Shown: positions 1 through 42,186, counted from the first letter of the stretch. The stretch: DNA of 45,720 bases from Bacillota bacterium (GCA_029551185.1 JAKPFY010000053.1:1-45720); one strand, 5' to 3'. The notes: generated by a model from the sequence alone, not told the origin. Translations and numbers: made by a program.

Positions 1-1249
1 CTTTGACCTTCATACTTGCTACCGGCAGATTCAACACACTTGCCTTCATTTTCAGCCAACCGGGATGCCTCGCGCCGTTCCCTACAGCCCTGATCTCGGT
101 TGTGTTCCCCGAATCCTTCCACACCTCCATGCTCCGGCGCATGGCATACGCGCAACCTTCGAGTACTGCACGGACCATATGGTAAGACGTATGCTCAGGG
201 CGAAGCCCGAGGAAAGCGCCTGTCGCTTCCGGAAACGCACAAGGACTGCGTTTACCTACAAGATACGGCAGAAACACAAGCCCGGATGCTCCCGGCTTTG
301 AGTGATTCAACGCCTCGGCAACCGTCCCGCTCCAATCATGCTCGCTCAGGTATACGTCAGGAAACAGACAAGACATGGCCCAGGCGAGACATCCGCCGCT
401 GTAAGATACCGGAGAGACTATTAATCTTTCCTCCGGGATCACGTGTTTTACAGTCTGTAAGCTGCAGCCGTCAGGGGCCACCAGGGACACGCATGTAGAT
501 GTACCGGTGGAGTCACATATCAAGCCGGGTTCAATTACGCCTGCGCCTAAAGCCTCGACAAACGCGTCAACACTCCCTGCAGCCACAGGTATCCCCTGGG
601 GAAGGTCTGTCGCCTCGTGCGCTTCCTTTGTTACTCGTCCAATAGGTTCCCATGGATCCGCCACCCTAGGAAAGAGTCCTAGGGCAGGATCCGATAGGCT
701 GATGTCGCCTGTATCATCCAAGTACCACTCCATGCATGACGCGGCAGATGAGTCAATCCGCATTTCCCCTGTAAGCCTTAACCCTATGTAATCCTTAGGT
801 TGCAGTACACGAATACCGTCTTTTTGTGCCTCTCCTTTACCCGAACATTCGAGTTGCTTATATATCCACTTGGAAGTAGCCTCAAAAGACGGTCCACTGC
901 AGGCATTCCGGCAATCGCCAATCATGAGAGGCCTGGGATCCATCCAAGTTACTACATTACCGACGGGAACGCCGTCAGAGTCTACTGCCAGAAGGGACGG
1001 GCCGTGCCCGGCAAGACCCACGCCTACGACACTCTGAGGATCACATCCTTGAAGCACCTTCCGGATGCAAGAGGTCACGATCTGCCACAACCTGATAGGA
1101 TCCTGTTCAGGGACATCAGAACCGCATCCCTTTACATATGATTCCTTAGCCGGACAGCGTGCTTGGCGCAAGCTCCCGTCTGAACCCCACAGCAACACTT
1201 TAACTGCTGAGGTACCTATATCTATCCCCATGAGAGAGAAGTCACGCAT
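1..1249 (-). CDS. FGGY-family carbohydrate kinase (3' end cut by window edge)
   Basis: Reading the minus strand from an ATG at 1249 gives an open frame to the left edge, about 416 residues without a stop. The N-terminus has the FGGY phosphate-binding loop GIDIGTSAVKVLLW. Further in are GVGLAGHGPSLLAVD and TWMDPRP, and the C-terminal half has AAGSVDAFVEALGAG and DSTGTST, as in xylulokinase-like sugar kinases. FGGY kinases are usually about 500 residues, so roughly 80-90 are missing. The family phosphorylates sugars or polyols with ATP; the substrate cannot be read here. The start overlaps the dehydrogenase stop by 8 bases (1242-1249), so it is the last visible gene of the operon. A second ATG at 1231 is an alternative start. 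Confidence 0.88.
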   Translation of the reverse strand, partial: MRDFSLMGIDIGTSAVKVLLWGSDGSLRQARCPAKESYVKGCGSDVPEQDPIRLWQIVTSCIRKVLQGCDPQSVVGVGLAGHGPSLLAVDSDGVPVGNVVTWMDPRPLMIGDCRNACSGPSFEATSKWIYKQLECSGKGEAQKDGIRVLQPKDYIGLRLTGEMRIDSSAASCMEWYLDDTGDISLSDPALGLFPRVADPWEPIGRVTKEAHEATDLPQGIPVAAGSVDAFVEALGAGVIEPGLICDSTGTSTCVSLVAPDGCSLQTVKHVIPEERLIVSPVSYSGGCLAWAMSCLFPDVYLSEHDWSGTVAEALNHSKPGASGLVFLPYLVGKRSPCAFPEATGAFLGLRPEHTSYHMVRAVLEGCAYAMRRSMEVWKDSGNTTEIRAVGNGARHPGWLKMKASVLNLPVASMKVK

Positions 1250-2285
1250 TACCATCAACCTTAAGAAGTATCTTCAGCGCCTCCCCGGAAGACGCCATAT
1301 CAAAAGCCTCTTTCGCCTCGTCAATATCAAATTCGTGTGTAATAATGCCACCTACATCTATAGTGCCGGAGGTCAACATCGTAAGGGCAGTGTGGAACCT
1401 GCGCGGCGTGAAGCCGAAACTCCCTGTGACAATGACTTCGTCGTAATGGAGGATGTGCGGGTCTATAGTTAAGCCGGATCCACCGGGCAACCCGCCGAAT
1501 ATGTTTACCACGCCTCCCTTTCTGACACAGCCGAACCCCGAGTTCACCGCATCTACGGTTCCAACGCAGACAAACACCTTATCAGCGCCTACTCCGTCTG
1601 TTTCATCCTTCACCCATGAAGATACGTCAGCCCCTTCATCCCAATGGTCGAAAACAAGAGCACCGCTTTCAGCTGCCTTGCTCCTTCTTAATGCATTGGG
1701 CTCGCTCACGAGGATCTTCGAAGCCCCTATTGTCTTACATAGTTCAAGCATAAGAAGGCCCATTGGTCCTGCACCGATTATCATGACAGTATCCGAAAGC
1801 CCCACATGGGAGTCAAGAACCGCGTTCACACAACAAGCAAGGGGTTCAGAAAGGCAGGCGAGTTTCAAGTGCTTATCGGACGGAACACGAAACGTCCCTT
1901 TACTCAGAACCTCAGATGGAATTCGTACATACTCCGCAAAAGCCCCTTCAATCCAGCCTTTATTCTCGCAAAGCTCCTCTTTGTCTTTACGGCAATACAC
2001 ACACCCATAGCACGGCACGTATGGCGCGACTGCAACTTCATCTCCCACTGCAATATCAGATTTCTCAGGCTTGCCTTTGATTTCAACTATCCGTCCCACT
2101 ACTTCATGACCGAGAATGCACGGAGGGGTAAACATGTGATGCCCACGTCTATATGTTTTGACATCAGTTCCGCAGAGACCGCAATAGGATACCTTAAGAA
2201 GCGCGTCGCCTTGTTCCTTAAGTACAGGAGCCTCAACGTTCTCGATCCTAAGATCCCCAGGGCCATGATACACAACTGCTTTCAC
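1242..2285 (-). CDS. Zinc-dependent MDR alcohol/polyol dehydrogenase
   Basis: A 347-residue medium-chain dehydrogenase of the sorbitol/threonine dehydrogenase type. It has the catalytic zinc Cys in SYCGLCGTD, the GHE motif in CILGHEVVG, the structural-zinc cysteines in the CYGCVYCRKDKEELC stretch, and a Rossmann glycine motif IIGAGPMGLL. It should oxidise a secondary hydroxyl with NAD(P). I start it at the GTG at 2285, because AAGGAGG sits about 8 bases upstream, inside the end of the aldolase gene; a TTG at 2312 would add nine residues with no good ribosome site. It lies between the aldolase and the FGGY kinase, which suggests oxidation of the same sugar or polyol intermediate. The substrate is unknown. 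Confidence 0.9.
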   Translation of the reverse strand: MKAVVYHGPGDLRIENVEAPVLKEQGDALLKVSYCGLCGTDVKTYRRGHHMFTPPCILGHEVVGRIVEIKGKPEKSDIAVGDEVAVAPYVPCYGCVYCRKDKEELCENKGWIEGAFAEYVRIPSEVLSKGTFRVPSDKHLKLACLSEPLACCVNAVLDSHVGLSDTVMIIGAGPMGLLMLELCKTIGASKILVSEPNALRRSKAAESGALVFDHWDEGADVSSWVKDETDGVGADKVFVCVGTVDAVNSGFGCVRKGGVVNIFGGLPGGSGLTIDPHILHYDEVIVTGSFGFTPRRFHTALTMLTSGTIDVGGIITHEFDIDEAKEAFDMASSGEALKILLKVDGNA

Positions 2286-2287
2286 AG

Positions 2288-3055
2288 TTATCGTCCCTCC
2301 TTGCAAGGGCAATCCCTGTGAACGATCCCCGATAACTCCCTGACCTTCCTGGCAGGATCATCAGCCTGATACACGTTGCGCCCAAACGCAATCCCTCGAG
2401 CCCCTGATGCCATGGCTTCTCTAACTATAGTGTCAGGGTCCTTGACCTTTGGACCCCCCGCTATTACAATCGGAACCCTCGAAGCCTCGACTATCTTCTG
2501 AAACCCCTCTCCTGTGTAATACGTCTTTATCGCATCTGCCCCGAGTTCGTATCCGACTCTTGCGCACACGCTTATCCACTCAGGATCGAAGCTATGTGAA
2601 AGATCGTATGGGATAACTTCCGCAAGGACCGGAATGCCCAGGGCGTGTGAATCTGATACCACCTGACCCATTATTTCAAACATCTCCTGCTCATACTCTG
2701 AACCTACCAGCAGCATGATGCAGACAGCGTCTGCACCGAGCCGACATGCTTCCTCAACAGAGCACACCAGTGTATGAAAAGCCGGATTCGGACTGAATTT
2801 CGTGGAACCTCCGGTCACCCGGACTATGAGACCTGCTTTCCCGGCATAGCTCTCCCACTCAGTTGCAGCCATGCCAGGGTTAACGAGGATAGCGTCACAC
2901 CCTCCTTCAACTACTTTTTGGACTGCAAGAGAAGGGTCATACAGCCCGTCCACAGGTCCCATAAAACCTGCGAAATCCAGCGGACATATGACCGTCTTTC
3001 CGTCCTCTTTGAATATCCGGCGAAGCCTAACATCTGTACCGGTCATTGCTGGCAT
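2288..3055 (-). CDS. DeoC/FbaB/LacD-type class I aldolase
   Basis: A 255-residue (beta/alpha)8 class I aldolase. The Schiff-base lysine is K177 in GADAIKTYYTGEGF. A phosphate-binding end follows: VIAGGPKVKD and then GIAFGRNVYQADDP. This pattern is shared by archaeal-type fructose-bisphosphate aldolase, LsrF, LacD-like tagatose-bisphosphate aldolase and aminodideoxyheptulosonate synthase, so the substrate cannot be fixed. It overlaps the upstream ADP-ribosylglycohydrolase gene by 29 bases and ends just before the dehydrogenase start. The ribosome site AAAGGAG is only two bases from the ATG at 3055 but 11 from a second ATG at 3046, so the true start may be 3046. Likely role: retro-aldol cleavage of the phosphorylated product of the kinases in this operon. 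Confidence 0.85.
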   Translation of the reverse strand: MPAMTGTDVRLRRIFKEDGKTVICPLDFAGFMGPVDGLYDPSLAVQKVVEGGCDAILVNPGMAATEWESYAGKAGLIVRVTGGSTKFSPNPAFHTLVCSVEEACRLGADAVCIMLLVGSEYEQEMFEIMGQVVSDSHALGIPVLAEVIPYDLSHSFDPEWISVCARVGYELGADAIKTYYTGEGFQKIVEASRVPIVIAGGPKVKDPDTIVREAMASGARGIAFGRNVYQADDPARKVRELSGIVHRDCPCKEGR

Positions 3056-4055
3056 ATCTCCTTTCCCTGACAGCTACGAGAATCGCGGTAAGCCTTTCAA
3101 AATCCAGATTGTTTACCTTTCGGACAGTGTCCACCCATCCTTCGGGGAAAGCCCGAAGACCACTGTATGCGCCTGATAACGCCCCGACTATGGACGCAAG
3201 CGTATCTGTATCACCGCCCAGGTTTGCAGCAGCCGGCACAGCTTTCTTGGGATCACCCTTATGTAGGACATAAAGGCCTATGGCAGTTGGGATAAGCTCT
3301 GTAGGATTCATTCCCGCTCCGCATGTGGTGTAGAGGAGATCTTCCGCTTCTTCGGTATTTCCGCTTTCATCCACAATCCTCAGGGCAAGCTCAATTCTTG
3401 TGCTCACCAGTGTGCCTGCCCACTGAATGCCCAAGCGTTCACCGTACCGGGCACCGTAAAGCGCGGCATCTACTACTTGATCCAAGGACCTTGCAATCAA
3501 AGCAGCAGCCACCCCGCAGCACACTGCGCACGCCCCTGCAATTGCTATGTTTACGCCATGTGTCGGAAGGCAGGACAGGTAACATTCTTCGGCTGCCTTC
3601 TCCAGATCCGGCGAATTCACTATCCCAATAGGCGCAACACGCATTGCAGCGCCTACAGTACTCCCTGCTGATCCGGTCTGACGAGGGTCTTCTCCCGCCT
3701 TCAGCCTCTCCAAGGCCTTACGTGAGCTGGGCCCTAAGACTGACGATTCATAGGCATTCGTCTGCTCCGCCCACTTAAGATACGCCTCTCCTGCCACTTC
3801 CGGGGTTATCCTTCCGTGAGCATCCAACGCCTCGATAATGGCAAGGGTTTGTTCTGTGTCGTCTGTGATTCTCCCTGCCGTCATTCCCGCATGGATGTGA
3901 CCTGGGCGCGGCGGACAAAATCCTTCTATCCGTCCGTATACATTGCGGATTTCTTCGCAGGTCATGAACTCTGACGGCATCCCCATTGCATCCCCGATTG
4001 CGACTCCTGCAACTGCTCCTGCTATTTTGTCAGGCTCTATGTTACATCTTGGCAT
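3027..4055 (-). CDS. ADP-ribosylglycohydrolase (DraG) family protein
   Basis: A 342-residue all-helical DraG-family protein. The metal-binding signatures are present: GDAMGMPSE near residues 21-29, TDDT near 64-67, and GGDTDTLASIVGAL near the C-terminus. Classical members remove ADP-ribose from proteins, but many family members sit in sugar or nucleoside gene clusters and probably hydrolyse small N-glycosides. Escherichia coli yegTUV is the known parallel: transporter, DraG-family hydrolase, PfkB kinase. Here it overlaps PfkB by 14 bases and the aldolase by 29, so translation is likely coupled. The inferred job is cleaving the N-glycosidic bond of an imported compound or its phosphate. GAAGGAG lies about 11 bases before the ATG. 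Confidence 0.88.
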   Translation of the reverse strand: MPRCNIEPDKIAGAVAGVAIGDAMGMPSEFMTCEEIRNVYGRIEGFCPPRPGHIHAGMTAGRITDDTEQTLAIIEALDAHGRITPEVAGEAYLKWAEQTNAYESSVLGPSSRKALERLKAGEDPRQTGSAGSTVGAAMRVAPIGIVNSPDLEKAAEECYLSCLPTHGVNIAIAGACAVCCGVAAALIARSLDQVVDAALYGARYGERLGIQWAGTLVSTRIELALRIVDESGNTEEAEDLLYTTCGAGMNPTELIPTAIGLYVLHKGDPKKAVPAAANLGGDTDTLASIVGALSGAYSGLRAFPEGWVDTVRKVNNLDFERLTAILVAVRERRYASNDRYRC

Positions 4056-5004
4056 TTTGCAGGAACTCCTTCAACTCTTCGCCTGAGGGCATAGCTTCCC
4101 TTGCGCCAACCTTCCGGATAGCCAAGGCTGCACAGGCGTTTCCGCGCATCAAGCATTCAGCTGTATCCATACCTTCCAATAAGCCTGTGATGAACCCCGA
4201 AGTGAATGAGTCTCCTGCGCCGGTCGTATCTATGACATCCGGTATAGAGAAGGCAGGAGCGCGGAATACTTTGTGATGGCACTCACCGTATCCGGAGGCG
4301 CTGTCGCAAAAGTGGCATTCGGATCCGTCGGATCCCAGTGTAACCACAACATGCCCCACACCGCATTCTAAGAGACGACCTGCGCCCTCAGTATGTGAGG
4401 CGGACGATGTAACCGCTGCCAGTTCCCCGCGGGAAAGCACGACATAGTCACATGACTTTATCAATCCTGTAAGAGTCGCTTTGTCCATCCATGAAATCCC
4501 GCCTCCGGGACCGTAGATGATAGTGGCGCAATGGCGCCTTGCAACTTGGATTGCCTCGAGAGCCACATTCGGCAGAACCTCACCGATGTACAGGACCTTC
4601 GCATTCACCATGGCCTCGTCCGGAAACTCATCAGGTTTTTGGAGGATAGCTTCTCCTCCTAGCGAGTAAATGACTCTTTCGCCGGTTCGGTCAACAGCGA
4701 TTATGGTCTGGGCGGTTCTGCCTCCTTCAATCTCTGTGAGCCACCTGACATCAACCCCGTCGGATTCGAACGCCTGGCGTAGTTTGCGTCCATTTTCATC
4801 GTCTCCAGTCCGCCCCACGAATCTGGATCGATAGCCGAGGCGTCCAATTCCGGCTGCTATGTTGGCAGTTGACCCGCCTGCAAAGAACCCTGCTTCTCCT
4901 TCGGCAAATACCATCTCATCAGGTTCCGGGAGCCTATCCACGGTAAACATCATGTCCATTGCGCACGCGCCAAGACAGACTACAGCTTCATCCGGTCCGC
5001 CCAT
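4042..5004 (-). CDS. PfkB-family carbohydrate/nucleoside kinase
   Basis: A 320-residue ribokinase-like protein. The substrate-side motif GGSTANIAAGIGRLG is near residues 43-57, and the anion-hole and catalytic-base motif DTTGAGD is at about 259-265, with D265 the predicted base. The family phosphorylates ribose, nucleosides, fructose phosphates and related compounds; the exact substrate is not readable. The ATG is one base after the EcfT stop, with GGGGGCG about 8 bases upstream, and the 3' end overlaps the DraG-family gene. An importer next to a PfkB kinase and a glycohydrolase suggests trapping of a newly imported nucleoside or sugar by phosphorylation. Confidence 0.9.
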   Translation of the reverse strand: MGGPDEAVVCLGACAMDMMFTVDRLPEPDEMVFAEGEAGFFAGGSTANIAAGIGRLGYRSRFVGRTGDDENGRKLRQAFESDGVDVRWLTEIEGGRTAQTIIAVDRTGERVIYSLGGEAILQKPDEFPDEAMVNAKVLYIGEVLPNVALEAIQVARRHCATIIYGPGGGISWMDKATLTGLIKSCDYVVLSRGELAAVTSSASHTEGAGRLLECGVGHVVVTLGSDGSECHFCDSASGYGECHHKVFRAPAFSIPDVIDTTGAGDSFTSGFITGLLEGMDTAECLMRGNACAALAIRKVGAREAMPSGEELKEFLQNAKM

Positions 5005-5005
5005 C

Positions 5006-5839
5006 CTAAAGCGCCCCCAACTTGAATACAGCGAGACAAACTATACTTGCTACAAGGCCCCCGACGGAGAAAATAACCATGAGCCGATCAGATACGCGCA
5101 TTTGGTAAGGTCTTATCATTGTAAAGTTTTTGCTGTATCCGAATGCCCGGGATTCCATTGCCAAAGCCATTGTGTCAGCCATGGAAAGGGCATTGGCAAA
5201 AAGGGGAACCAGCATACTTGAGGTCTTCTTCACCTTCTCTGTAAAGGAACCTGAATCGAAGTCAACCCCTTTGGATCTCTCCGCATCTCTTAAGGTAGCA
5301 AGCTGTATCTGGATAACAGGCACAAACTTGGAGGCGGCTGAGACCACGAACCCGGACTTGTAGGAAACGAACGGAAGCCGCACAATAATCTGTACTACTT
5401 CAGAAGGTGATGTCACGTACCCGAAAACCGATATTGTAATAAGGACAACAAAGACTTTAAGAGCCATCGAGAGCCCGTAAATGAGTCCGCCGATTCGTAC
5501 AGGCCATGCCGGGCCTATCATGGGAATCCAGCCGGGTATCAGATGGAACGCAACCCTCTCCGGATTTGCAAGCCAAACAACTTTGGGGACATATGTAGCG
5601 CCTTGGATCAATGTGATTACGACTGTGACGATAAGAAGGAACATGAATGTCCCTTTCATTTTCGCCCAAGGGAACTGTCCGATACAGCCGATTATCACGG
5701 TCACCAAGCCCAATCCCAGAAGATAGACGGGATCCGTCCAAATAATGCTGATAACTATCGTCGCGACCAGCCAAATAAACTTAGCCCTGGGGTCAAGCTT
5801 ATGTATTGGCGTTTGTTTGCTTTCGTACTCGACAATCAT
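5006..5839 (-). CDS. ecfT: ECF transporter transmembrane component EcfT
   Basis: A 277-residue integral membrane protein with about five to six hydrophobic segments. It has the N-terminal EcfT signature HKLDPRAKFIW. The two cytoplasmic coupling-helix motifs end in the Ala/Ser-Arg-Gly patterns ERSKGVDF and MESRAFGY, which contact the two ATPase domains. EcfT couples ATP hydrolysis to toppling of the S component. The start overlaps the ATPase stop as ATGA (5836-5839), typical of translational coupling, and the gene is followed after one base by PfkB. Having its own T, A and S genes makes this a dedicated (group I) ECF system and not one that shares a common module. Confidence 0.92.
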   Translation of the reverse strand: MIVEYESKQTPIHKLDPRAKFIWLVATIVISIIWTDPVYLLGLGLVTVIIGCIGQFPWAKMKGTFMFLLIVTVVITLIQGATYVPKVVWLANPERVAFHLIPGWIPMIGPAWPVRIGGLIYGLSMALKVFVVLITISVFGYVTSPSEVVQIIVRLPFVSYKSGFVVSAASKFVPVIQIQLATLRDAERSKGVDFDSGSFTEKVKKTSSMLVPLFANALSMADTMALAMESRAFGYSKNFTMIRPYQMRVSDRLMVIFSVGGLVASIVCLAVFKLGAL

Positions 5840-7572
5840 TTGCCGGCCACCTCTCGATTCATCCTTGATGATCTCTTGAGCCTGTCGGCTGCCTCATGCG
5901 GAGTCAGCAAGACCTCGCCCCATAAAATGTCAGATACATCAGCAATTTGAGGCCTTCGCAAATATGCGTGTTCCATAAGTTCAGGCTGTGAAAAAACCTC
6001 GCGCGGTGTTCCTTCCCCGATTACCCGTCCGTTGGCCATGACCACGACCCGTTTTGCGTAGAGACTGACTATGTTCATGTCGTGAGTGATTATTAATATG
6101 GTCTTGCCTTTCTCCCTGCGCAATCTTTCCAAGTAATCCAGTATCTGAAGGGACTCCAGCCAGTCCAGACCGGTGGTAGGCTCATCCACAATGAGTATCT
6201 CGGGCTCCATTGCCACCACAGAAGCTAAAGCAAGCCTCTGTCTCTCGCCCTTTGTGAGGTAACGCGGCCATACTTGCCTGTACTTATCAAGTCCTATGTC
6301 AAGGAGGATATCGCGTATAGCCTCCTCCATTTTGTCTTTATCCATCCCAGTATTCATTGGCCCGAATCTCAGCTCCTCCTCTACAGTGTCACAAAAGAGC
6401 TGTTCATCCGGGTTCTGAAACACATACCCAACTTTGGAGCACAGTTTCCAAGTGGGCTCATTTAATGCTGACTTGCCGAAAAGGCGGACATCCCCTGCCG
6501 AAGGCCTGAGCAACCCGTTGAAATGTCTGGTCAGAGTCGTCTTGCCGGCACCGTTCTGCCCGACGATAGCTACGAATTCACCGGGATATATCTTGAGGTT
6601 TGCACCATCAAGCGCTTTGACTCCCATAGGGTATCGGAACTCAAGATCGACTGCTTCCACGATAGGCGTTATGTCTTGAGCTCGCTCGTTGCTTGCGTCA
6701 ACTTCCCGATTCGGGCCGCTGCTTGCCAAGGTATCAGACAAGACATCAAAAGCCCCGCTTTTGACGATTGATACTGCCTCTTCCACTGAAAAAGGTGTCC
6801 TGTCAGCACCTATGAGGTTTCCGAACTCGACAATGCCAGGCACTCTTATGCCCACTTCCCTCAACTCATCTACATCTGCAAAAACCTCTTTCGGCGTGCC
6901 TCCGAGAACAAACTCCCCTGATTTCATGACAAAGACCCGATCCGCCAGCTCAAGTATGTCATCAACCTCTTGCTCTATCAGGATGACAGTCATTCCGAAG
7001 GACTTGTTCAGGTCACGTATTATTGAAAAGACACGGGCTTTGCCTTCGGGATCCAGCATGGATGTAGGCTCATCCAGCACCATAATCTTGGGAAGCATGG
7101 CATAGACTCCCGCGATAGCTGTCGCTTGTTTCTGCCCGCCTGAAAGGCGATGCGGCGCCCTTTGCTCAAGGCCTTGTAGTCTCATGTCTTCTATGGCTCT
7201 CTTGATCCTCTGCATGATTATTTCATAGTCGAATCCAAGGTTAGCCGGCCCGAAGGCTACGTCTTCTTCTACTGTCATTCCGAAGAGTTGCGTATCCGGG
7301 TCCCCGAATACCAATCCTACCCTGGACGCCATCTGTGCAGTTCCCACCTGATTCGGGACCTGACCGTCAACGACCACGTCTCCTGTGAGTTTCCCCTCAA
7401 TGAACCGAGGAACTGTGCCGTTAATGACACATGCTAAGGTGCTCTTTCCTGCGCCGGTAGGCCCGAGTATAGCTACGCACTCGCCCTCTTTCACATCAAG
7501 GGAGACTCCTTTTAAGGCTTGCCGTTTTGAGCCCTTATAAGAAAAGGTCACGTCTTTAAGTGAAACAATCAT
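5836..7572 (-). CDS. ECF transporter ATPase, fused EcfA-EcfA'
   Basis: One polypeptide of about 578 residues carries two complete ABC ATPase domains. The first has Walker A GPTGAGKST, signature LSGGQKQ and Walker B with D-loop VLDEPTSMLD. The second has GQNGAGKTT, the altered signature LTKGERQR and VDEPTTGLD. Most ECF systems encode the two ATPases separately, so this is a fusion, as in some dedicated systems. A linker of about 40 residues joins the domains. I place the start at the ATG at 7572; GGAG is only three bases away, and a TTG at 7581 with GAGAGG about 8 bases upstream, or a GTG at 7590, would add only three to six residues. It powers the importer formed with the flanking S and T genes. 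Confidence 0.92.
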   Translation of the reverse strand: MIVSLKDVTFSYKGSKRQALKGVSLDVKEGECVAILGPTGAGKSTLACVINGTVPRFIEGKLTGDVVVDGQVPNQVGTAQMASRVGLVFGDPDTQLFGMTVEEDVAFGPANLGFDYEIIMQRIKRAIEDMRLQGLEQRAPHRLSGGQKQATAIAGVYAMLPKIMVLDEPTSMLDPEGKARVFSIIRDLNKSFGMTVILIEQEVDDILELADRVFVMKSGEFVLGGTPKEVFADVDELREVGIRVPGIVEFGNLIGADRTPFSVEEAVSIVKSGAFDVLSDTLASSGPNREVDASNERAQDITPIVEAVDLEFRYPMGVKALDGANLKIYPGEFVAIVGQNGAGKTTLTRHFNGLLRPSAGDVRLFGKSALNEPTWKLCSKVGYVFQNPDEQLFCDTVEEELRFGPMNTGMDKDKMEEAIRDILLDIGLDKYRQVWPRYLTKGERQRLALASVVAMEPEILIVDEPTTGLDWLESLQILDYLERLRREKGKTILIITHDMNIVSLYAKRVVVMANGRVIGEGTPREVFSQPELMEHAYLRRPQIADVSDILWGEVLLTPHEAADRLKRSSRMNREVAGK

Positions 7573-7639
7573 AGGCTCCAAATGGAACACCTCTCACATC
7601 TTAAAACTTTAGTCCTCACCTGTCCCCACCTGTGCTCAT

Positions 7640-8275
7640 TCAGGCTTCGGGCTCTATATGCTCGTCTATTTCGCGTTTCCCTTCTTTTTGAGCTGTCCTC
7701 AGAGCCTGTGCCACTGTCAGGCCGACTGCCGCGTTTACCGCTGAGCCAATTAACTGGGATGGCAGCAAAGCAATCATTAGAGCGGGACCTATCATAATTA
7801 CCCATGGACCTAAGCAAGTCACTGTGTTTACTATCGTGCCGACTATAATTGCAAATATAACATTAGTCTTCTTCGCCACAAACACCCCGAGTGTCACTGT
7901 AAAAGCCATTGCGCACATATAGATCGGAACCATCGGGAACCAACTGGCGAAGCCCCCCAAAGCGTTTGCTAAGAAGGTTCCTATGGCAGCTACCGTGGCA
8001 CCGACAGGCCATCCGAAATACGCAGCAGCAAAATAGCCGGCAGCAGCATCAAGGGCAATGGTGGTAGCAGGTCCGGGTATCTTAATCATCGCGCCTGCCC
8101 CTGCCACTGCAGCCAATATCGTGACACGGGAGATTGTGCGCGTATCCCATACGACACTGTGTTCTTCAGGATACTGATTACTCAATACGCCTCCGAGAAG
8201 CCTCATCAAGAGCAGATAACAGACTGCCAATACGTATGACACTCCAAGCCCTAAAGCTCCTTGCCCAAGCGGCAT
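7640..8275 (-). CDS. ECF transporter substrate-binding (S) component, specificity unknown
   Basis: A 211-residue hydrophobic protein between the regulator and the ATPase genes. The core begins near residue 50 with a helix leading into IKIPGPATTIALDAAAGYFA, a pattern seen in S components, and is followed by about five more membrane segments. Before this core is one extra predicted membrane segment (about residues 8-30), so it may have seven spans and not six. S components bind vitamins, metals or nucleoside-like compounds with high affinity; this one does not match a specificity I can name. The ATG at 8275 has AAGGGGG upstream. Its place in an operon with PfkB and DraG-family genes argues for a glycoside or nucleoside-like ligand. 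Confidence 0.8.
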   Translation of the reverse strand: MPLGQGALGLGVSYVLAVCYLLLMRLLGGVLSNQYPEEHSVVWDTRTISRVTILAAVAGAGAMIKIPGPATTIALDAAAGYFAAAYFGWPVGATVAAIGTFLANALGGFASWFPMVPIYMCAMAFTVTLGVFVAKKTNVIFAIIVGTIVNTVTCLGPWVIMIGPALMIALLPSQLIGSAVNAAVGLTVAQALRTAQKEGKREIDEHIEPEA

Positions 8276-8341
8276 TCAGATTACCCCCTTAACTTGATTT
8301 GACCGATCTAAACAGGACGGATACCGTTAAACCACATGCAG

Positions 8342-9292
8342 TCACGATGCCATTTCCAATACTTTTCGCGCAGCTATATCATCAGTGATTAATACGTTTA
8401 TCACCCCGGTTCTGAGCGCCCCGAGTATCGCCCGGGCCTTGTTCAAGCCGCCCGCAACTGCCACAACATGCTCTATACTCTTCAACTGTCCCAGACTTGC
8501 CCCAATAATCCGTTCCTCCAGCGGAGTATTGACAGGTATGCCATGCACATCAAAGAATCTCATACAAATATCGCCTACCACCCCTATTTTCTCAAGTTCG
8601 ATTAACTCATTGGGAGGAAAACCTCCTTCCTCCAGCAAAGTTGAAGGAGGCACCAGACAGCCTATTCCCATTACGGCCACGTCCGCCGTTGCCCACTTGT
8701 CTGCGACATTTCTTATATTGCTGTCCTTCATCATCGTAAGGCGCGCTTCAGGAGTGTCGACAAAAGAGGGGGCATGGATGTACAGATGGGATCCGCCAAA
8801 AGCCATGGAAACACGGGAAGCGATGTCATTTACCTGAAGATCCGGACTCGCCTGCCCCTGACCGCCGAGAAGTGGAATTACCAGTACCTCTCTGGGATTT
8901 GGTTTTATCGCATTTAAGGCTTCAACCAGTTCACGCAAGGTCGCGCCCCACGATACTCCTATGACATGTCCGGATTTCAGCGTCTTGTCCAAGTACTTGG
9001 CGCCTGCCATACCCAAGTTCTGTGTGAGCAGCTTTGAAGGACCTGCGCTGCCTGAGATGATCACTACTGCGTCAAGGCTGAATACGGAGCATAGTTCATC
9101 TTCCAGGTCAGAAAAATCAAATTCAGGAGGGATTACGTTTATTATGACTATCCCTTCATCCTGAGCTTGCTTTAGGGCTCTTGAAACCTGGCTTCTAGAT
9201 ATATTCAGACTGTCAGCAATCTCGTTTTGTGTCTTGCCGAGTTCATGATACTGCCTGGCAATTTCATAAAGCATGCGCTTATCAAAAGCCAT
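8342..9292 (-). CDS. SorC-family sugar-responsive transcriptional regulator
   Basis: A 316-residue protein. The N-terminal helix-turn-helix (about residues 5-50) includes KTQNEIADSLNISRSQVSRAL. The rest is a SorC/DeoR-type sugar-phosphate-binding domain, with GVSWGATLRELV, VIPLLGGQGQ and a C-terminal AVAGGLNKARAILGAL stretch. Family members bind a phosphorylated sugar and control their own operon. I chose the ATG at 9292 because AGAGGTG is well spaced before it; the frame extends to 9391 but lacks support. It is the first gene of the operon, 66 bases before the S component. A perfect 14-base palindrome at 9398-9411 is its likely operator. Confidence 0.9.
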   Translation of the reverse strand: MAFDKRMLYEIARQYHELGKTQNEIADSLNISRSQVSRALKQAQDEGIVIINVIPPEFDFSDLEDELCSVFSLDAVVIISGSAGPSKLLTQNLGMAGAKYLDKTLKSGHVIGVSWGATLRELVEALNAIKPNPREVLVIPLLGGQGQASPDLQVNDIASRVSMAFGGSHLYIHAPSFVDTPEARLTMMKDSNIRNVADKWATADVAVMGIGCLVPPSTLLEEGGFPPNELIELEKIGVVGDICMRFFDVHGIPVNTPLEERIIGASLGQLKSIEHVVAVAGGLNKARAILGALRTGVINVLITDDIAARKVLEMAS

Positions 9293-9397
9293 AGGTACAC
9301 CTCTGGGAATCACATTATTGGCCTGCAGCAGCAGTCGAACATAGGTTATCCGGAATATAAAAACATTCTGAGACTGCACCTGCTTGCACATATGTTC

Positions 9398-9411
9398 AGC
9401 ACAATTGTGCT
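9398..9411. promoter_or_regulatory. Candidate operator palindrome upstream of the SorC-led operon
   Basis: AGCACAATTGTGCT is a perfect 14-base inverted repeat about 106 bases before the regulator ATG. A TAGAAT hexamer on the minus strand lies just upstream of it and could be a -10 element; no clear -35 was found. Position and symmetry suit autoregulation by the SorC-family protein. Binding is inferred. Confidence 0.45.
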
Positions 9412-9623: not shown

Positions 9624-9641
9624 TAAGAAGAGGTGATCCCA

Positions 9642-9932
9642 ATGCCGTTGGCAGACAAGATACACCAACATCACAAAGGCATCATGCGACTAGCAGCTGT
9701 CCACGGTGCGACGAAGGTTAGTCTTTTCGGATCAGTTGCACGTGGAACTGACACTGAGTCCAGCGATGTTGATCTTCTTGTTGAATTTGAAGACGGGCGC
9801 TCTCTGTTTGATCTCATTCGCCTAAAGGATGAGCTTGAAGCCCTATTAGACAGGCCAGTTCACATAGTGACTGAAAGAGCGGTACACCCAGCAATAAAGG
9901 ACAACATCGTACGGGAGTCGCTTAAGCTATGA
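9642..9932 (+). CDS. mntA: MntA-type minimal nucleotidyltransferase (antitoxin)
   Basis: A 96-residue minimal nucleotidyltransferase. It has the GSx10DxD active-site pattern: GSVARG at residues 30-35, then SDVDLL with D42 and D44. MntA antitoxins neutralise the partner HEPN RNase HepT by adding AMP groups to the tyrosine of its RX4HXY motif. The ATG at 9642 is chosen over a GTG at 9633 because AGAGGTG is then well spaced. The stop overlaps the hepT start as ATGA (9929-9932). The gene looks intact although its toxin partner is interrupted, and it stands as a plus-strand island between two minus-strand operons, consistent with acquisition as a small mobile defence module. Confidence 0.85.
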   Translation: MPLADKIHQHHKGIMRLAAVHGATKVSLFGSVARGTDTESSDVDLLVEFEDGRSLFDLIRLKDELEALLDRPVHIVTERAVHPAIKDNIVRESLKL

Positions 9933-10285: not shown

Positions 10286-11527
10286 TTAATATGCAAAAGT
10301 AGTATAACCCCTCCTTTCGCGTCCGGGAATGATCTTCCCTAGCACAACCCCGTGCCTTGCGCCTGTCGCTTTTGGCACGTTGGTGAAGCAGCCGGCCATA
10401 GCATCGTTTGCCAGTATGGCAAAGGCAATTGCCTCCTTAGCGTCGCTTGATATCCCAAGGTCTTCATGGACCATGACATCAACCCCGGGGAGCCTTTGGC
10501 GGAGCATGTTAAGAAGAGTTCCATTATACGAACCGCCACCCCCGATGACCACTTGATCCGGCTTGCAGATAGGCATCACCCACCTCTTATAGCTCATAAC
10601 GATGGATTCCGCGGTCAACGCAGTTACAGTAGCCACCAGGTCAGAATCCCCTATTCCCTGAGCTTGTGCCTGATTTACCATCTCTTTGGCAAAGTGTATG
10701 CCGAATTCCTCGCGGCCTGTGGTCTTCGGAGGCGCCTTCCGGAAGAAGGGATGCGACAATGCCCAATCAAGCAAACTCCGGACGATATTGCCTGAAGCTG
10801 CTATTCTGCCGTCGTCGTCGAATGTGAGCCTTCCACCGGTAACAGTAGACACAACAGCGTCAATGACCATATTCCCCGGACCGGTATCGAAAGCGATTAC
10901 TTGATCCAGGCTGCACCCTCCAGGGAGCAATGTCAGATTGCCGATGCCTCCGATATTTTGGATAACCCTGGATTTCTCCGCATCGCGAAGCAGTATGTAG
11001 TCTGCATAAGGGACAAGCGGGGCGCCTTGGCCTCCTGCTGCCACATCACGTACACGGAAATCAGCTACAGTCGTTATCCCGGTACGTTCAGCGATAACCG
11101 CAGGTTCACCGATTTGGAGCGTAGATCTTGTCGTAATGCCGCAATAGGTTTCAGCCTTTGGGATATGGTATATTGTCTGTCCGTGGGATGCGATAAGATC
11201 GATATCTTCTGTCTTAAGGCCTGCAGCCTTAATTGCCTGAAGAGCTGCATCCGCAAAAACTTCCCCAAGGATGAAATTCATACGGCAAATCTCATCAACC
11301 CTGGACGTCTCCGGCATCATCAAAGCAAGTACTTTCTCACGCAACTCAGGTGTATAAGGGATTCTCCGGAAGACGACCCGTCCTAACCTTGTGGACTCTC
11401 TATGCCCTGAAAGCTCCACGACAGCAGCATCCACTCCATCCGCGGATGTGCCTGACATAAGACCGATAACCCTCCGCACACTTCCGGAAGCGGGGCTTTT
11501 TCCGGATACATTCGTCTCTTTTAACAA
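10286..11527 (-). CDS. anmK: Anhydro-N-acetylmuramic acid kinase
   Basis: A 413-residue AnmK. It shows the phosphate-binding N-terminal GLMSGTSADGVDAAVVEL, then ASHGQTIYHIP, NIGGIGNLT and FDTGPGNMVIDAVV, all characteristic of the family. The enzyme hydrolyses and phosphorylates anhydro-MurNAc to MurNAc-6-phosphate in cell-wall recycling. The start is taken as the TTG at 11527, which overlaps the stop of the upstream serine hydrolase and has GGTGGTGAG upstream; about 15 residues precede the conserved core. It is the last gene of a four-gene minus-strand cluster with AmiE-like, NagZ and GHL10 genes. Its downstream neighbour, MurQ etherase, is not in the window. Confidence 0.95.
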   Translation of the reverse strand: MLKETNVSGKSPASGSVRRVIGLMSGTSADGVDAAVVELSGHRESTRLGRVVFRRIPYTPELREKVLALMMPETSRVDEICRMNFILGEVFADAALQAIKAAGLKTEDIDLIASHGQTIYHIPKAETYCGITTRSTLQIGEPAVIAERTGITTVADFRVRDVAAGGQGAPLVPYADYILLRDAEKSRVIQNIGGIGNLTLLPGGCSLDQVIAFDTGPGNMVIDAVVSTVTGGRLTFDDDGRIAASGNIVRSLLDWALSHPFFRKAPPKTTGREEFGIHFAKEMVNQAQAQGIGDSDLVATVTALTAESIVMSYKRWVMPICKPDQVVIGGGGSYNGTLLNMLRQRLPGVDVMVHEDLGISSDAKEAIAFAILANDAMAGCFTNVPKATGARHGVVLGKIIPGRERRGYTTFAY

Positions 11528-12585
11528 AGCATACTCACCACCGCATTATGGAATCTGGGACGTAATCTGATATGGGCATTGTTGTCCCTGCCAAAATGGA
11601 CCCTGTTGGTAAGGAGGATAGCGAAGATGTCAAGTTCCGGGTCTATCCAGATGGATGTGCCTGTAAACCCTGTATGACCAAAAGCCTTTGGCGACATAAG
11701 ATCTCCGGATGAAGACTTTACCCCGGTTCCGCGGATCAGCCACCCGAGACCCCGCTTCTCATCAAACCCGGCGCCGGTCCGGTCGCAAGTCATAGCTTCA
11801 ACCGTCCGAGGCGAGAAAACGCTGACCCCTTCAAGTGTGCCCTTATTTAGAAGCATCCGGGCAAATCGCGAAAGGTCTTCCACTATAGAGAAAAGCCCTG
11901 CGTTTCCACTGACTCCCCCCATTGCCCATGCGTTCTCATCATGGACTTCTCCTATCAGAATCCTTCCGCGCCATTTACAGTATTCAGTCGCTGCAGCCCT
12001 CTCCCTTAAATCAGGCGGCGGATTGAAGCAAGTATCCTTCATACCGAGGGGACCGAAAACCCTCTCTGCCAGGAAGCGATCCATTGGTTCACCGGCCACC
12101 TTTTCCACTGCCAGGCCCAGGACAATAAAGCCAAGGCAGCTGTAGATCACAGCGGTCCCGGTCTTATATTCCAAAGGAAACTTGGAAATAGCTTTGATAA
12201 TTTCTTTCGGTGATGACGCATGCATATAGAGATCCGTCCATGCAGCCATCCCTGAAGTGTGGGTCAAGAGCTCACGGATGGTGATCCCTTCCTTATCGGT
12301 GCCGCAAAACTCCGGAATAAACCTTTCCACCTCATCATCAAGGCGAAGCTGCCCTTCCTCCACAAGGATCATAACAGCTGATGTTGTAGCGACACACTTC
12401 GTCACAGAAGCCAAGTCAAATAAAGTGTCAACTTCCATAGGCTTCTTCTCGGGACGGATCATTCGGAAGCCTACAGCCCCCTTTTCCACCACTCCGCGGT
12501 CGGTACCGTATGCAAAGACCGCCCCGGGAATCTCGCCTCTATCAACTGATCCCGCAAGAAGTCGGCGAATACTGCTTTCCTTCAA
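11521..12585 (-). CDS. Serine hydrolase of the beta-lactamase/AmiE (YbbE) family
   Basis: A 354-residue class C beta-lactamase-like protein. The nucleophile motif is SVTK in LFDLASVTKCVATT (about residues 60-63), the second motif is YSC in VIYSCLGF, and the third-strand motif is HTG in GHTGFTGTSIW. No signal peptide is evident, so it is probably cytoplasmic. In Bacillus subtilis the similar AmiE is an N-acetylmuramyl-L-alanine amidase encoded with NagZ in the MurNAc recycling operon, and the neighbours here suggest the same role. The TTG start at 12585 is supported by AGGAGG 8 bases upstream. Overlap with the anmK start indicates co-translation. An esterase or D-alanyl peptidase activity remains possible. 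Confidence 0.87.
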   Translation of the reverse strand: MKESSIRRLLAGSVDRGEIPGAVFAYGTDRGVVEKGAVGFRMIRPEKKPMEVDTLFDLASVTKCVATTSAVMILVEEGQLRLDDEVERFIPEFCGTDKEGITIRELLTHTSGMAAWTDLYMHASSPKEIIKAISKFPLEYKTGTAVIYSCLGFIVLGLAVEKVAGEPMDRFLAERVFGPLGMKDTCFNPPPDLRERAAATEYCKWRGRILIGEVHDENAWAMGGVSGNAGLFSIVEDLSRFARMLLNKGTLEGVSVFSPRTVEAMTCDRTGAGFDEKRGLGWLIRGTGVKSSSGDLMSPKAFGHTGFTGTSIWIDPELDIFAILLTNRVHFGRDNNAHIRLRPRFHNAVVSMLC

Positions 12586-12706
12586 GACGCAAGCCTCCTA
12601 TATTACACAACGATCTGACCACAGTCTGAAAGAACTACGGCACAACACTAGATGGAACCGGCAGAGAGCAACGGGCTGACAGCAACTTGGACCTATTGCA
12701 AAAATG

Positions 12707-14494
12707 TTATATCCCGTGACCCACAGGATAGAAACCAGGAATCGCAACCGGTAACTTTCCTTGGGATTTCACATCTCCGGTCAGGACTTCTGCTAAGGCC
12801 TTCATGCTTGTGCCTGATGAATTGAACACTGTCAGGTAGGTGCCTACCTCACTATACTTCTTTAGGTCATAAGGCTCGCGGAGAGAGACTGCAATGATAC
12901 GTGGCATTTTTTTTGTGAGAGTCGCCACAAGTTGAGCCTGCCCTCTATGTCCTGAAGACCATGCGCGCGAAGTCAGAATAATCACTGTATCGTAATCCTT
13001 AGCCATGTTTACAATTTTGCCTTGTTCAGCAGTATCCGGATTCGCTGACATTGATATCCCGTCAACCTTCCCGAGCGTCGGCTCCAGATAGCGCGCAAGG
13101 CTCGTAGGTTCGCCTGACGGGTCTTCAGCCTGTGTAAGCGGGCCTATGTTTGGATACACCACCAACACCTTACCGCATGACTCAGCCTTGATGGGAATGA
13201 GGCCGCCTTCATCCCTCACGAGGCATATACTCGCTCGCGCAGCTTCAAGGGCCAGTCTCCGGTTATCCTCGGATCCTACAAGCGCTTTTGCCCTCTTTGC
13301 GTCCACAAACGAGGATTGAAGGATACCGCGTCTCTCTTTCACCTGAAGCACCCTTTGAACTGACTCATCCACACGGGACATAGGGATCTTGCCTGATGCC
13401 ACCGCTTCCGACAAGGCATCCACCACACGTACAGCATCCCGCCAATCGTCAGGCCACCCCACAAGGACTATGTCAGCACCTGCGTTTACCGCCATCACCG
13501 CAGCTTCCTCCAAACCGAAGTTCTTAACAATAGCCCCCATCTCCATGGCATCTGTCACAATGAGACCTTTGAATCCCATGTCCCCTCTAAGCAACCCGGT
13601 TAAGACATGTCGGGAAAGAGTTGCAGGCAAACCCGGCTCCGGCTCAAAAGCCGGGAAAGTCACATGAGCGGTCATTACCACATCAACTCCGCTGTCAATG
13701 ACTACCTGGAAGGGTTTGAGCTCGACCTCCCTCAATCTGGCTTTGTCGTGTGGCACTGTAGGCAGATCTATATGTGAGTCAAGAGATGTATCCCCATGCC
13801 CGGGGAAGTGCTTTACGGTTGCACTGACCCCCTCTTTCTGCAAGCCCTCCACCATAGCGGCTCCAAGTTCAGAGACAGCCTCAACTGACTCTCCGAAGGA
13901 CCGGACACCGATTACAGGGTTATTCGGATTGCTGTTTACATCGACTACAGGGGCAAAGTTCATATTGATACCACAGGCTCTGAGCTCTCTTGCGGTTGCT
14001 TCCGCCACCTTGCGCGCAAGAACAAGATCTCCGGCTGCTCCAAGCCCCATATTTCCGGGGAATGACGCTGCGCCCGGCAGTCTGGCCACATACCCGCCTT
14101 CCTGGTCAGCTGCGATGAAAAGCGGAATACCGGCACCCTGGGATGCAGCCATCTTCTGAAGCTCGTTGGAAAGGGATGCTGTCTGGAACGGATCCGCAAG
14201 ATTCCGTGCAAAAAAAATGATTCCACCAACCTTACATTGCTCAATTAAGGTTTCAGCTTCCGGGCCGGCAATTTGGCCGGGAAACCCTGCCATTACCATC
14301 TGGCCCACCTTCTCTTCAACACTCATCCGCTGAAGCAATGCAAGAACGCGGTCTTCCTTTGACGCGACAGGAGCATTCACTTGTAATCCCCCTAAGATAA
14401 TAATCATTCCCATAATCACTATAGCCGTGGCTGCCTTTCCGCGCGGTGATAATTTGGAGGCCCTTTTCTCTACAGACCCTTTCTCCCTAATCAT
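12707..14494 (-). CDS. nagZ: Beta-N-acetylhexosaminidase NagZ (GH3), membrane-anchored or secreted
   Basis: A 595-residue GH3 enzyme. An N-terminal hydrophobic segment (about residues 22-40, IVIMGMIIILGGL) suggests export or anchoring, as in Bacillus NagZ. The catalytic loop KHFPGHGDTSLDSH is present with its His/Asp dyad, and the nucleophile is the Asp in LIVTDAMEMGAI. A C-terminal domain of about 200 residues follows the barrel, as in the two-domain Gram-positive form. It releases GlcNAc from wall fragments and so feeds MurNAc-containing products to the amidase and AnmK encoded downstream. The ATG overlaps the stop of the GHL10 gene by 8 bases. Confidence 0.95.
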   Translation of the reverse strand: MIREKGSVEKRASKLSPRGKAATAIVIMGMIIILGGLQVNAPVASKEDRVLALLQRMSVEEKVGQMVMAGFPGQIAGPEAETLIEQCKVGGIIFFARNLADPFQTASLSNELQKMAASQGAGIPLFIAADQEGGYVARLPGAASFPGNMGLGAAGDLVLARKVAEATARELRACGINMNFAPVVDVNSNPNNPVIGVRSFGESVEAVSELGAAMVEGLQKEGVSATVKHFPGHGDTSLDSHIDLPTVPHDKARLREVELKPFQVVIDSGVDVVMTAHVTFPAFEPEPGLPATLSRHVLTGLLRGDMGFKGLIVTDAMEMGAIVKNFGLEEAAVMAVNAGADIVLVGWPDDWRDAVRVVDALSEAVASGKIPMSRVDESVQRVLQVKERRGILQSSFVDAKRAKALVGSEDNRRLALEAARASICLVRDEGGLIPIKAESCGKVLVVYPNIGPLTQAEDPSGEPTSLARYLEPTLGKVDGISMSANPDTAEQGKIVNMAKDYDTVIILTSRAWSSGHRGQAQLVATLTKKMPRIIAVSLREPYDLKKYSEVGTYLTVFNSSGTSMKALAEVLTGDVKSQGKLPVAIPGFYPVGHGI

Positions 14495-22169: not shown

Positions 22170-22967
22170 CTACTTGAATTCAGAATCCTTGGCTTCTTTC
22201 ACAATCTTAACGCCTGCGCTCGCTCCGATCCTATTTGCGCCTGCTTCCACCATCCGACGCGTGGCTTCGTAATCTCGAATTCCCCCTGAGGCTTTCACGC
22301 CCATGTCAGGTCCGACCACCTTACGCATGAGTCTGACATCTTCAACAGTGGCGCCTCCGGGTCCGAACCCTGTGGATGTCTTCACAAAGTCAGCTCCGGC
22401 CAGTTTTGCCAGCAAGCACCCTTTTATTTTTTCTTCATTTGTGAGAAGAGCTGTCTCCAGGATTACTTTGACTAAGGCTTTATCATGAGCCGCGTCCACT
22501 ACAGCCTTGATATCCCGGAGCACAAGATCGTAGCCGCCTGACTTCAGAGCGCCGACGTTAATAACCATGTCTACCTCAGAGGCGCCGTTTGCAATCGCAT
22601 CTCTGGTTTCTACGACCTTAGTCACAGACGTATTCGCGCCTAGAGGAAATCCTATCACTGTACAGACTCTTACAGGCGTATCCTTGAGAAGGCTCGATGC
22701 GAGACTTACGTTTGCAGGATTAACGCAGACAGAGGCGAAATTGTATTCCCTTGCTTCTTCACACAGCTTGATAATTTGCTCACATGTGGCTTCCGGTTTA
22801 AGCAACGTGTGGTCAATAATGCAAGAAATCTTTTGCGAAACGTGGGATGCCTGTTGCCTATCAGCGCCTGCCTGCACCGAGGGACAGGTTAGAGTTACAC
22901 CGGTTCTCTTCTTCAATTCCTCCATGAGCTCATCTGCAGCCTCTCTTATCAGCTGATCAAGGTCCAT
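22170..22967 (-). CDS. deoC: Deoxyribose-phosphate aldolase
   Basis: A DeoC of about 265 residues. The catalytic lysine is in [15 protein letters not shown] and the second, activating lysine in [12 protein letters not shown]. The N-terminal signature [12 protein letters not shown], then VCVNPANV and [11 protein letters not shown], is clear. It splits 2-deoxyribose-5-phosphate to acetaldehyde and glyceraldehyde-3-phosphate. About 45 extra residues precede the usual start, an N-terminal extension seen in some Firmicutes. The ATG at 22967 is used; a GTG at 22979 is possible. The gene is alone here, while its pathway partner deoB is about 8 kb away at 30867. Confidence 0.95.
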
Positions 22968-23373
22968 AAAGCTAACCACATCCTGTCTATTGCCATATTT
23001 GACCTTCTCCTGGCAAAATTACAAACATGCCGGCAATAATACGGTTTTCCTCAGGCCGGCGTGTATATACCTTCTTTAATATTTGTTCTCCACAAAAAAC
23101 AGAAACCCTACATTAAAGGTTCTTCCCATACAGGCCCAGGAACAAATAAACTCATCAATCCCGGAACACCTTTGAAGAAGGATTTTCACAGCTTCACGTA
23201 GAATTAGTTATTTCCATGGTTCATTGGTTCATTAGAATATCTCGGTAGTCATTAAGAGGACAGTATGACCCGGTTCGAAGTGTGGGTACAGAGCATAGCC
23301 GGTAATATGGTACGACTAAGCTGATACGCGAAGGATATCATATAAGAAATACGTGAAGGATGGAGGGATCTCA
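22968..23373. other. Divergent intergenic region between deoC and rubrerythrin
   Basis: About 400 bases without a supported gene. It must contain the deoC and rubrerythrin promoters. The plus strand shows GGTTCATT repeated in tandem near 23218-23234 followed by TAGAAT, a possible -10, but no convincing PerR-type box or -35 was found. Confidence 0.4.
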
Positions 23374-40232: not shown

Positions 40233-40269
40233 CTCCCTCCCTCCCTCTCTAGTAACACATCTACCAGAA

Positions 40270-40278
40270 TATGATATG
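40270..40278 (-). promoter_or_regulatory. Possible mother-cell sigma (E/K) -10 box
   Basis: The minus strand reads CATATCATA, matching the CATAnnnTA -10 of SigK and close to that of SigE, about 38 bases before the DUF3794 start. No clear -35 is seen. Confidence 0.3.
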
Positions 40279-40407
40279 CCAAGCAAAGGAAGCACGTCAC
40301 CTGAATCTACTCATGGGAACTACTTCAGCAAATTATCGTATTACTTCTTAGTAGAACAATACATGAGTTAATATCCAAAAGCTCAAGTAGCAAAGGGAGG
40401 GCATTTC

Positions 40408-40992
40408 GTGCAAGGGCTCCGTAACCTAAGAAAATCCAACGTTAAGAGGATGCATCCTCTGTTTGTCCTTATTTTAGTGGCAGGCCTTTTGCTTACATCA
40501 ATTTACAGGGTACCGGAATGTTTTGCAGCCAGCCCGGAAAGCCTCTTGAGCAAACCTGCTCCTTCATTCGTTGTGACTGATCTAGACGGAATACGCATTA
40601 ACCCTAGTGACCCAGGTAAGGTAACACTAATAGATTTCTGGGCCACCTGGTGCGGCCCATGTAGAGAGATTACCCCGGTATTCATCTCTCTCCATAAAAC
40701 TTATTCTGACCAAGGATTAACCGTTCTTGGAATCGCAGTAAACGATACCCAAAAGAAAGTCCAAGAGTATGTCAAAAGCAATAGCATTCCGTATTCCATA
40801 GCAGCGTCCGGCACCAAGGGCGACACACCCCTTGCCGAAATCATCAAGGATTATGGGGTTACAGCTATACCCACACTTGTCCTGGTTGATAAAGAAGGCA
40901 TAGTAAGGCATGTGTCAGTTGGGACAGGTCCTGATAAGGCTAAACTTGAGAAGGAATTAGGCGGGCTCATCGCCGACCTTCTTAAGAAGTGA
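40408..40992 (+). CDS. TlpA/ResA-like membrane-anchored thiol-disulfide oxidoreductase
   Basis: A 194-residue protein. A basic N-terminus is followed by one hydrophobic segment (about residues 18-33), then a thioredoxin fold with the active site WATWCGPCRE and the cis-proline region VTAIPTLVLVD. It should face the outside of the membrane and reduce or exchange disulfides, as ResA, StoA and TlpA do. The GTG start has AAAGGGAGGG seven bases upstream. It is the first of a three-gene plus-strand unit with a CXXC membrane peptide and a 4Fe-4S membrane protein, which may supply its electrons in place of CcdA. Confidence 0.92.
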   Translation: MQGLRNLRKSNVKRMHPLFVLILVAGLLLTSIYRVPECFAASPESLLSKPAPSFVVTDLDGIRINPSDPGKVTLIDFWATWCGPCREITPVFISLHKTYSDQGLTVLGIAVNDTQKKVQEYVKSNSIPYSIAASGTKGDTPLAEIIKDYGVTAIPTLVLVDKEGIVRHVSVGTGPDKAKLEKELGGLIADLLKK

Positions 40993-40999
40993 GCAGTAA

Positions 41000-41212: not shown

Positions 41213-41271
41213 CGTGTAAGTCTTAAGCGAGAAGGCAGGGTCTAAATATCAAGGATCCGGGAATCTATGGC

Positions 41272-42081: not shown

Positions 42082-42120
42082 GCGGTATCCCTGGTAACCG
42101 GCATCTCCATACCATCAAGA

Positions 42121-42157: not shown

Positions 42158-42186
42158 CACAACATGAAGGTTACTGCCTATCCTCT

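Follow-up and report, generated by a model that had tools for sequence, protein, structure and literature searches.

Alpha-ribazole is an alpha-N-riboside, and its salvage by CblT and CblS was reportedly described by Gray and Escalante-Semerena in 2010. The same salvage role is reported for the two proteins in other papers (PMC6167548, PMC6461909). The ADP-ribosylhydrolases ARH1 and ARH3 split alpha-NAD and alpha-ADP-ribosyl bonds and leave the corresponding beta linkages intact, and ARH3 additionally cleaves O-linked alpha-ribosides (PMC9738213). Pairs of DraG-family and PfkB genes, including yegUV of E. coli, are widespread in bacteria, yet we found no proven small-molecule role for them. 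Here, we describe an operon that ties such a pair to a CblT-related energy-coupling factor (ECF) importer, a combination that points to alpha-ribosides as the substrate class. It lies at the start of a window of 45,720 nucleotides from a Bacillota bacterium (GCA_029551185.1, JAKPFY010000053.1:1-45720), which constitutes contig C213 of a fragmented 2.66-Mb genome. With a probability of roughly 55%, we read it as a catabolic operon under SorC control for the uptake and breakdown of an alpha-linked riboside.

Gene content, conservation and operator

The original prediction described nine genes on one strand. Their order and strand were borne out, and Pfam and NCBIfam return every family that it named. 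The operon and its operator comprise the following features.

9386-9410, strand-less: tandem operator, composed of GCACATATGTTC at 9386-9397 (one mismatch) and a perfect GCACAATTGTGC at 9399-9410
8342-9292, minus strand: SorC/DeoR-type regulator with a Sugar-bind domain, PF04198 (Pfam/NCBIfam); longest open reading frame from 9391, likely ATG at 9292
7640-8275, minus strand: ECF S component, a divergent CblT relative with an extra N-terminal helix (Pfam PF07155/PF12822, tree, AlphaFold2)
5836-7590, minus strand: fused A-A' ECF ATPase with two ABC domains, TIGR04520 and TIGR04521 (Pfam/NCBIfam)
5006-5839, minus strand: ECF T component, CbiQ family (Pfam/NCBIfam)
4042-5004, minus strand: PfkB kinase, ribokinase-like (Pfam/NCBIfam)
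3027-4055, minus strand: DraG/ARH-family hydrolase (ADP_ribosyl_GH, PF03747), a predicted alpha-riboside glycohydrolase (Pfam, motifs, model)
2288-3055, minus strand: DhnA/LsrF/ADH-synthase-type class I aldolase or thiolase, DeoC/LacD (Pfam/NCBIfam)
1242-2312, minus strand: Zn-dependent dehydrogenase (ADH_N/ADH_zinc_N) of the threonine/polyol dehydrogenase superfamily (Pfam/NCBIfam)
2-1258, minus strand: FGGY carbohydrate kinase (FGGY_N/FGGY_C), 3' end lost at the contig end (Pfam/NCBIfam)

The predicted boundary at 9292 agrees with the likely ATG of the regulator. The tight overlaps expected between the genes are found from the ATPase gene to the FGGY kinase gene, where neighbours overlap by 4-29 bp or are separated by 1 bp, some of these values depending on the choice of start. 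Spacing is larger upstream, with 49 bp between the S component and ATPase genes and 66 bp between the regulator and S component genes. The predicted extent of nine genes did not hold, as the contig ends within the FGGY gene. A further contig from this genome, C155 (17,825 bases), terminates with the last 54 FGGY residues (L185:17660-17824), beyond which lie genes for an MFS transporter, a 171-aa exported protein and a secreted PF01663 hydrolase. Where the contigs of relatives extend further, the FGGY gene is followed by an MFS gene, a gene for a 172-aa protein (PF00174 match, signal-peptide-like N-terminus) and one for a PF01663 hydrolase with a similar N-terminus. Because C155 supplies the FGGY end and the same three genes as the relatives, the operon comprises 12 genes. 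The dedicated ECF module within it is complete, with S component, T component and two ATPase domains, and is kept in relatives. Promoter and terminator scans returned nothing above chance.

Homologue searches covered 150 and later 399 genomes, and neighbourhoods were fetched for the matches. The 12-gene order is common to at least 15 genomes from three families; gene-calling gaps aside, genes absent from a relative's locus coincide with contig ends. Protein identity to the window is ~95% within the genus and ~47-80% in other families. Since the same order recurs over this range of identity, the arrangement is not due to chance. An order unique to this genome had been considered at the outset; it is instead conserved, as is the co-occurrence of the S component with the DraG-family and aldolase genes, and the unit is co-regulated. 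The operon S components form one clade (100/100 support), as do the operon DraG proteins (100/99), so that the gene set travels together. Its distribution is patchy, because some close relatives (G001, G003 and G012) gave no match. The named carriers are uncultured metagenome-assembled genomes (MAGs), such as Firmicutes bacterium UBA4981 and Clostridia bacterium DTU025.

The regulator gene is preceded by two 12-bp palindromes of the GCACAWWTGTGC type, which are set at a 13-bp step ~95-120 bp before its ATG. The window holds exactly these two sites, compared with 0.39 expected by chance over its whole length. A site with at most one mismatch is found near the regulator start in 15 of 16 distinct genomes, seven of which have a pair with the same 13-bp step. 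Perfect sites are rare (0-4 per genome), and the remaining GCACATATGTGC sites in genome G000 and its relatives showed no obvious common target.

A second operon type, present in three genomes of other families (L151, L152 and L153), has the same operator ahead of its regulator in each case. This type contains the regulator, aldolase, dehydrogenase, PfkB and DraG genes together with a protein weakly matching diacylglycerol-kinase/NAD-kinase domains (below cut-off), which takes the place of the FGGY kinase. A different S component accompanied by A-A and T genes is present in two of the three, and L151 is without ECF genes. This S component is weakly QueT-like (E = 3.5e-4, below cut-off). The shared operator and five shared genes thus define a constant core of regulator, aldolase, dehydrogenase, PfkB and DraG, around which the S component and the second kinase are exchanged.

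Importer, hydrolase and the class of substrate

The nearest S family to the window S component by sequence homology was identified from its genomic context. Among 34 neighbourhoods of S homologues outside the operon, an AIR-synthase-type (AIRS-type) cblS gene adjoins in 32 and a PfkB gene in two; in view of the cobalamin context, we take the AIRS-type neighbour to be of the family of the alpha-ribazole kinase CblS. A cobalamin riboswitch is present in 17 of the 21 cblST-type loci scanned, directly upstream in 15, and three of the loci without one lie among CobD, CobA and CobS genes. The cblS-type neighbours and the riboswitches therefore mark this S family as CblT. In the tree, the S proteins of the operons group together on a long branch next to CblT. 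The AlphaFold2 model of the window protein (mean predicted local distance difference test, pLDDT, 88) has the ECF S-component fold with an added N-terminal helix, and a sequence search of the PDB gave no match. The CblT signature (IPSP-GT, LDS, GH, GFPL and NG) is altered at S68G, S77A, H100C, P110A, L111S, G151T and L174Q in 11-12 of the 12 operon S proteins. As these residues are near-invariant in CblT, the operon S component possibly differs in its ligand.

Two other ligands were considered. Riboflavin degradation, raised by a PF07155 match and a RibU fold match, was rejected, as by sequence the S component is most closely related to CblT and the ribityl group is not a glycoside. Queuosine salvage, raised by the weakly QueT-like S component of the second operon type, was set aside; the paper on the known queuosine hydrolases QueK and Qng1 assigns them to unrelated families and does not mention an ADP-ribosylglycohydrolase (PMC11130926). 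Separately, the CblT-type ECF clusters at L067:3340-7535 and L158:1644-6700 have a PfkB gene at the expected place of cblS, possibly encoding a non-orthologous alpha-ribazole kinase.

Homology of the S component to CblT, and a CblST-like cluster with a DraG gene in the same genome, would also fit a CblTS system with extra genes that salvages alpha-ribazole for vitamin B12 assembly. However, no cblS gene lies within the operon, and the riboswitch scan found none in the window and no cobalamin riboswitch in four other operon loci. CobT is missing from each of the 16 carrier genomes and CobS from 14 of them, including genomes estimated to be 96-98% complete, and control genomes were positive. With CobT and mostly CobS absent, the imported compound is not used for B12 in the carriers. 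The S residues are altered, and the predicted hydrolase would destroy alpha-ribazole. The absence of CobS in near-complete carriers largely refutes this explanation, which we regard as very improbable.

The CblST-like cluster lies on contig C137 (L033:4615-10636) and consists of genes for a GntR regulator, a CblT-like S component, a CblS-like AIRS protein, A-A and T components and a DraG protein that is 46% identical to the window DraG. CobS and CobT were not found in that genome, and the CblTS-like pair is apparently used outside B12 assembly. Similar clusters occur at L051-L054, L058, L061, L148 and L150.

The model of the DraG-family protein (pLDDT 95) has MJ1187, DraG and ARH3 as best matches, and the metal-binding motifs TDDT and GGDxDT are retained. 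A CblT-type importer and a DraG-type hydrolase would therefore be independent pointers to the same class of compounds, the alpha-ribosides. Elsewhere, DraG and PfkB genes are neighbours together with a YegT-like nucleoside permease (E. coli, Salmonella, Pantoea), a cytosine permease (Lactiplantibacillus, Plesiomonas) or polyamine-type ABC genes (rhizobia, Paracoccus). These varied transporter partners indicate that the pair is a general module with exchangeable importers. What is new here is an ECF version of the module with a full catabolic suite; the parts themselves are known. The N-glycoside or nucleoside-like substrate proposed by the original prediction thus gains indirect support, from the CblT-related S component, from the alpha-riboside specificity of characterised DraG-family enzymes (PMC9738213) and from the transporters that adjoin DraG-PfkB pairs.

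The neighbourhoods in E. coli, Pantoea, Lactiplantibacillus and rhizobia could also reflect ordinary scavenging of beta- or damaged nucleosides of the yegTUV kind, with the ECF importer merely replacing the nucleoside permease. A regulator-dehydrogenase-aldolase triad near a nucleoside deoxyribosyltransferase gene at L173 is in line with such a role. We nevertheless consider it unlikely, since beta linkages are not accepted by those DraG/ARH enzymes that have been characterised biochemically (PMC9738213) and the window protein shares only 34% identity with YegU. E. coli yegTUV itself is without a proven substrate, and its repressor is reported to sense ADP-glucose (PMC10819704). This link to ADP-glucose and glycogen was kept as context only, as its basis is the E. 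coli repressor rather than the enzymes of the operon. A further nucleoside catabolic cluster, at L155:353-10988, combines a DraG gene with an AIRS-type gene; it encodes a GntR regulator, DraG, PfkB, a BmpA-type nucleoside-like ABC transporter, a CblS-like protein, an IF-2B-family protein and a PsuG-like protein.

Proposed pathway and the additional enzymes

For the putative alpha-riboside operon, we infer the catabolic direction, the substrate and every enzymatic step from the proteins encoded. The secreted PF01663 hydrolase, encoded outside the window, probably acts extracellularly to trim a phosphorylated precursor, and the riboside would enter through the dedicated ECF transporter, the S component of which has a common ancestry with CblT. 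The DraG-family enzyme is predicted to hydrolyse the alpha-ribosyl bond, and the ribokinase-like PfkB protein to phosphorylate the ribose thus freed, or else the riboside. The dehydrogenase, FGGY kinase and DhnA/LsrF-like enzyme would convert a second carbon skeleton into central metabolites, probably via a keto-sugar phosphate, and an aglycone that cannot be used may be exported by the MFS protein. Because PfkB would finish the ribose, the dehydrogenase, FGGY kinase and aldolase need another substrate, either a polyol aglycone or an altered sugar.

The FGGY kinase is nearest to xylulokinases. The aldolase has MJ0400/ADH synthase, not LsrF, as its overall best match, and its lysine segment KTYY...GF..IV...VPIVIAGG resembles that of the thiolase LsrF. 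The Schiff-base lysine (KTY motif) is present in all operon aldolases, the DHG motif is replaced by D(F/Y)(G/A), and Ile or Leu occupies the column of the classical aldolase acid/base tyrosine, which we take to be Tyr146 of T. tenax fructose-bisphosphate aldolase. In one chemically consistent scheme, a ketopentose would be phosphorylated by the FGGY kinase and a 2,4-dione formed by the dehydrogenase, to be cleaved by the LsrF-like enzyme.

The LsrF-type lysine segment and the missing tyrosine, with LsrR and autoinducer-2 (AI-2) kinase among the weaker matches, raise the idea of an lsr-like operon in which an LsrR-like regulator, the FGGY kinase and an LsrF-like thiolase process an AI-2-like molecule, DraG and PfkB being accessory. 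Yet the best match of the aldolase lies elsewhere, the operon is without LsrACDB-type transporter genes, and DraG and PfkB are always present; we judge the idea very unlikely.

Every enzyme would have a job if the substrate were instead a ribosyl-polyol (O-riboside), such as one released from a ribosyl-polyol-phosphate polymer. This polymer would be cut by the secreted hydrolase, the ECF importer would take up the fragment, and DraG would free ribose, for PfkB, and a polyol, which would pass to the dehydrogenase, the FGGY kinase as a ketose kinase, and the aldolase. The superfamily of the dehydrogenase, the xylulokinase kinship of the FGGY protein and the cleavage of O-linked alpha-ribosides by ARH3 (PMC9738213) agree with this scheme. 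However, kinship with CblT points to N-ribosides of flat bases, and DraG-PfkB pairs elsewhere accompany nucleoside or cytosine permeases. We also know of no ECF-type polyol-glycoside importer, and overall the scheme appears rather unlikely.

Several points weigh against an operon for alpha-riboside catabolism. Ribose metabolism alone requires no dehydrogenase, FGGY kinase or aldolase, and the active site of the aldolase departs from the classical one, so that the complete route of cleavage, phosphorylation, oxidation and aldol splitting first proposed is not upheld. The window S component may bind something quite different from alpha-ribazole, and the weakly QueT-like S component of the second operon type means that importer kinship does not fix the substrate. 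Because MAGs can be incomplete, some CobS or CobT genes could have been missed, although completeness reaches 96-98% in several carriers.

More tentatively, and at somewhat less than even odds, we postulate an undescribed nutrient pathway in which the CblT lineage was recruited from cofactor salvage to feeding on alpha-ribosides (nucleosides or ribosyl-polyols). Hydrolysis by the DraG-family enzyme would be the committed step, and the two operon forms would share the operator and swap the specificity subunit and the second kinase. Among open-licence papers, we found no description of this gene set, although a report in a subscription journal could be missed. If true, an ECF importer of vitamin precursors would have moved from cofactor salvage into carbon catabolism, and the pathway would suggest a fate for alpha-ribazole and similar dead-end nucleosides in anaerobic communities.

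The window contains further genes outside the operon. A small nucleotidyltransferase-domain protein (PF01909) is encoded divergently at 9633-9932 on the plus strand, and one downstream frame tried for a partner had stops. On the minus strand, genes for AnmK, a beta-lactamase-family hydrolase and a GH3 protein lie in a row at 10286-14494, likely for muropeptide recycling. A DeoC-family aldolase (22170-22979, minus strand) and a phosphopentomutase-like metalloenzyme (PF01676; 30867-32084, minus strand) resemble classical deoxynucleoside catabolism genes. Large sporulation-related SipL/SPOCS-repeat proteins are encoded at 38622-45310 on the minus strand, with Pfam confirmation at 42187-43605 and 43682-45310; the second of these also has a LysM domain.

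Comparison with known systems

The lsr (autoinducer-2) operon resembles the present one in its SorC-family regulator, FGGY kinase, LsrF-like lysine motif and missing aldolase tyrosine. It differs in that no operon locus has an LsrACDB-type transporter, that an ECF importer, DraG and PfkB are present, and that the aldolase is nearest to MJ0400. With the ARH/DraG ADP-ribosyl hydrolases, the window protein shares the fold (template-modelling score 0.70-0.78 by query length) and the di-metal motifs, whereas its operon setting is small-molecule uptake and not protein de-ADP-ribosylation.

In yegTUV, a DraG-family gene and a PfkB gene are likewise adjacent and accompanied by a transporter gene, and a DhnA-type aldolase gene is nearby in E. 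coli (fbaB, divergent). In contrast, the operon importer is of the ECF type, not MFS, NCS1 or ABC, and the window PfkB aligns with YegV only in part, alongside the 34% identity of the window DraG to YegU. The operon furthermore adds a dehydrogenase, an FGGY kinase, a SorC regulator, where YegW is of the GntR type, and a secreted hydrolase.

CblT/CblS salvage shares the S family with the operon, at 26-35% identity over the full protein and with common IK-P-P and ALD--GYF regions. CblT imports an alpha-N-riboside, and some cblT loci have ECF A and T genes adjoining. Unlike these loci, the operon is without a CblS gene or cobalamin riboswitch, most carriers are without cobamide-assembly genes, and the operon S component, with seven changed signature residues, is accompanied by a hydrolase and catabolic enzymes instead.

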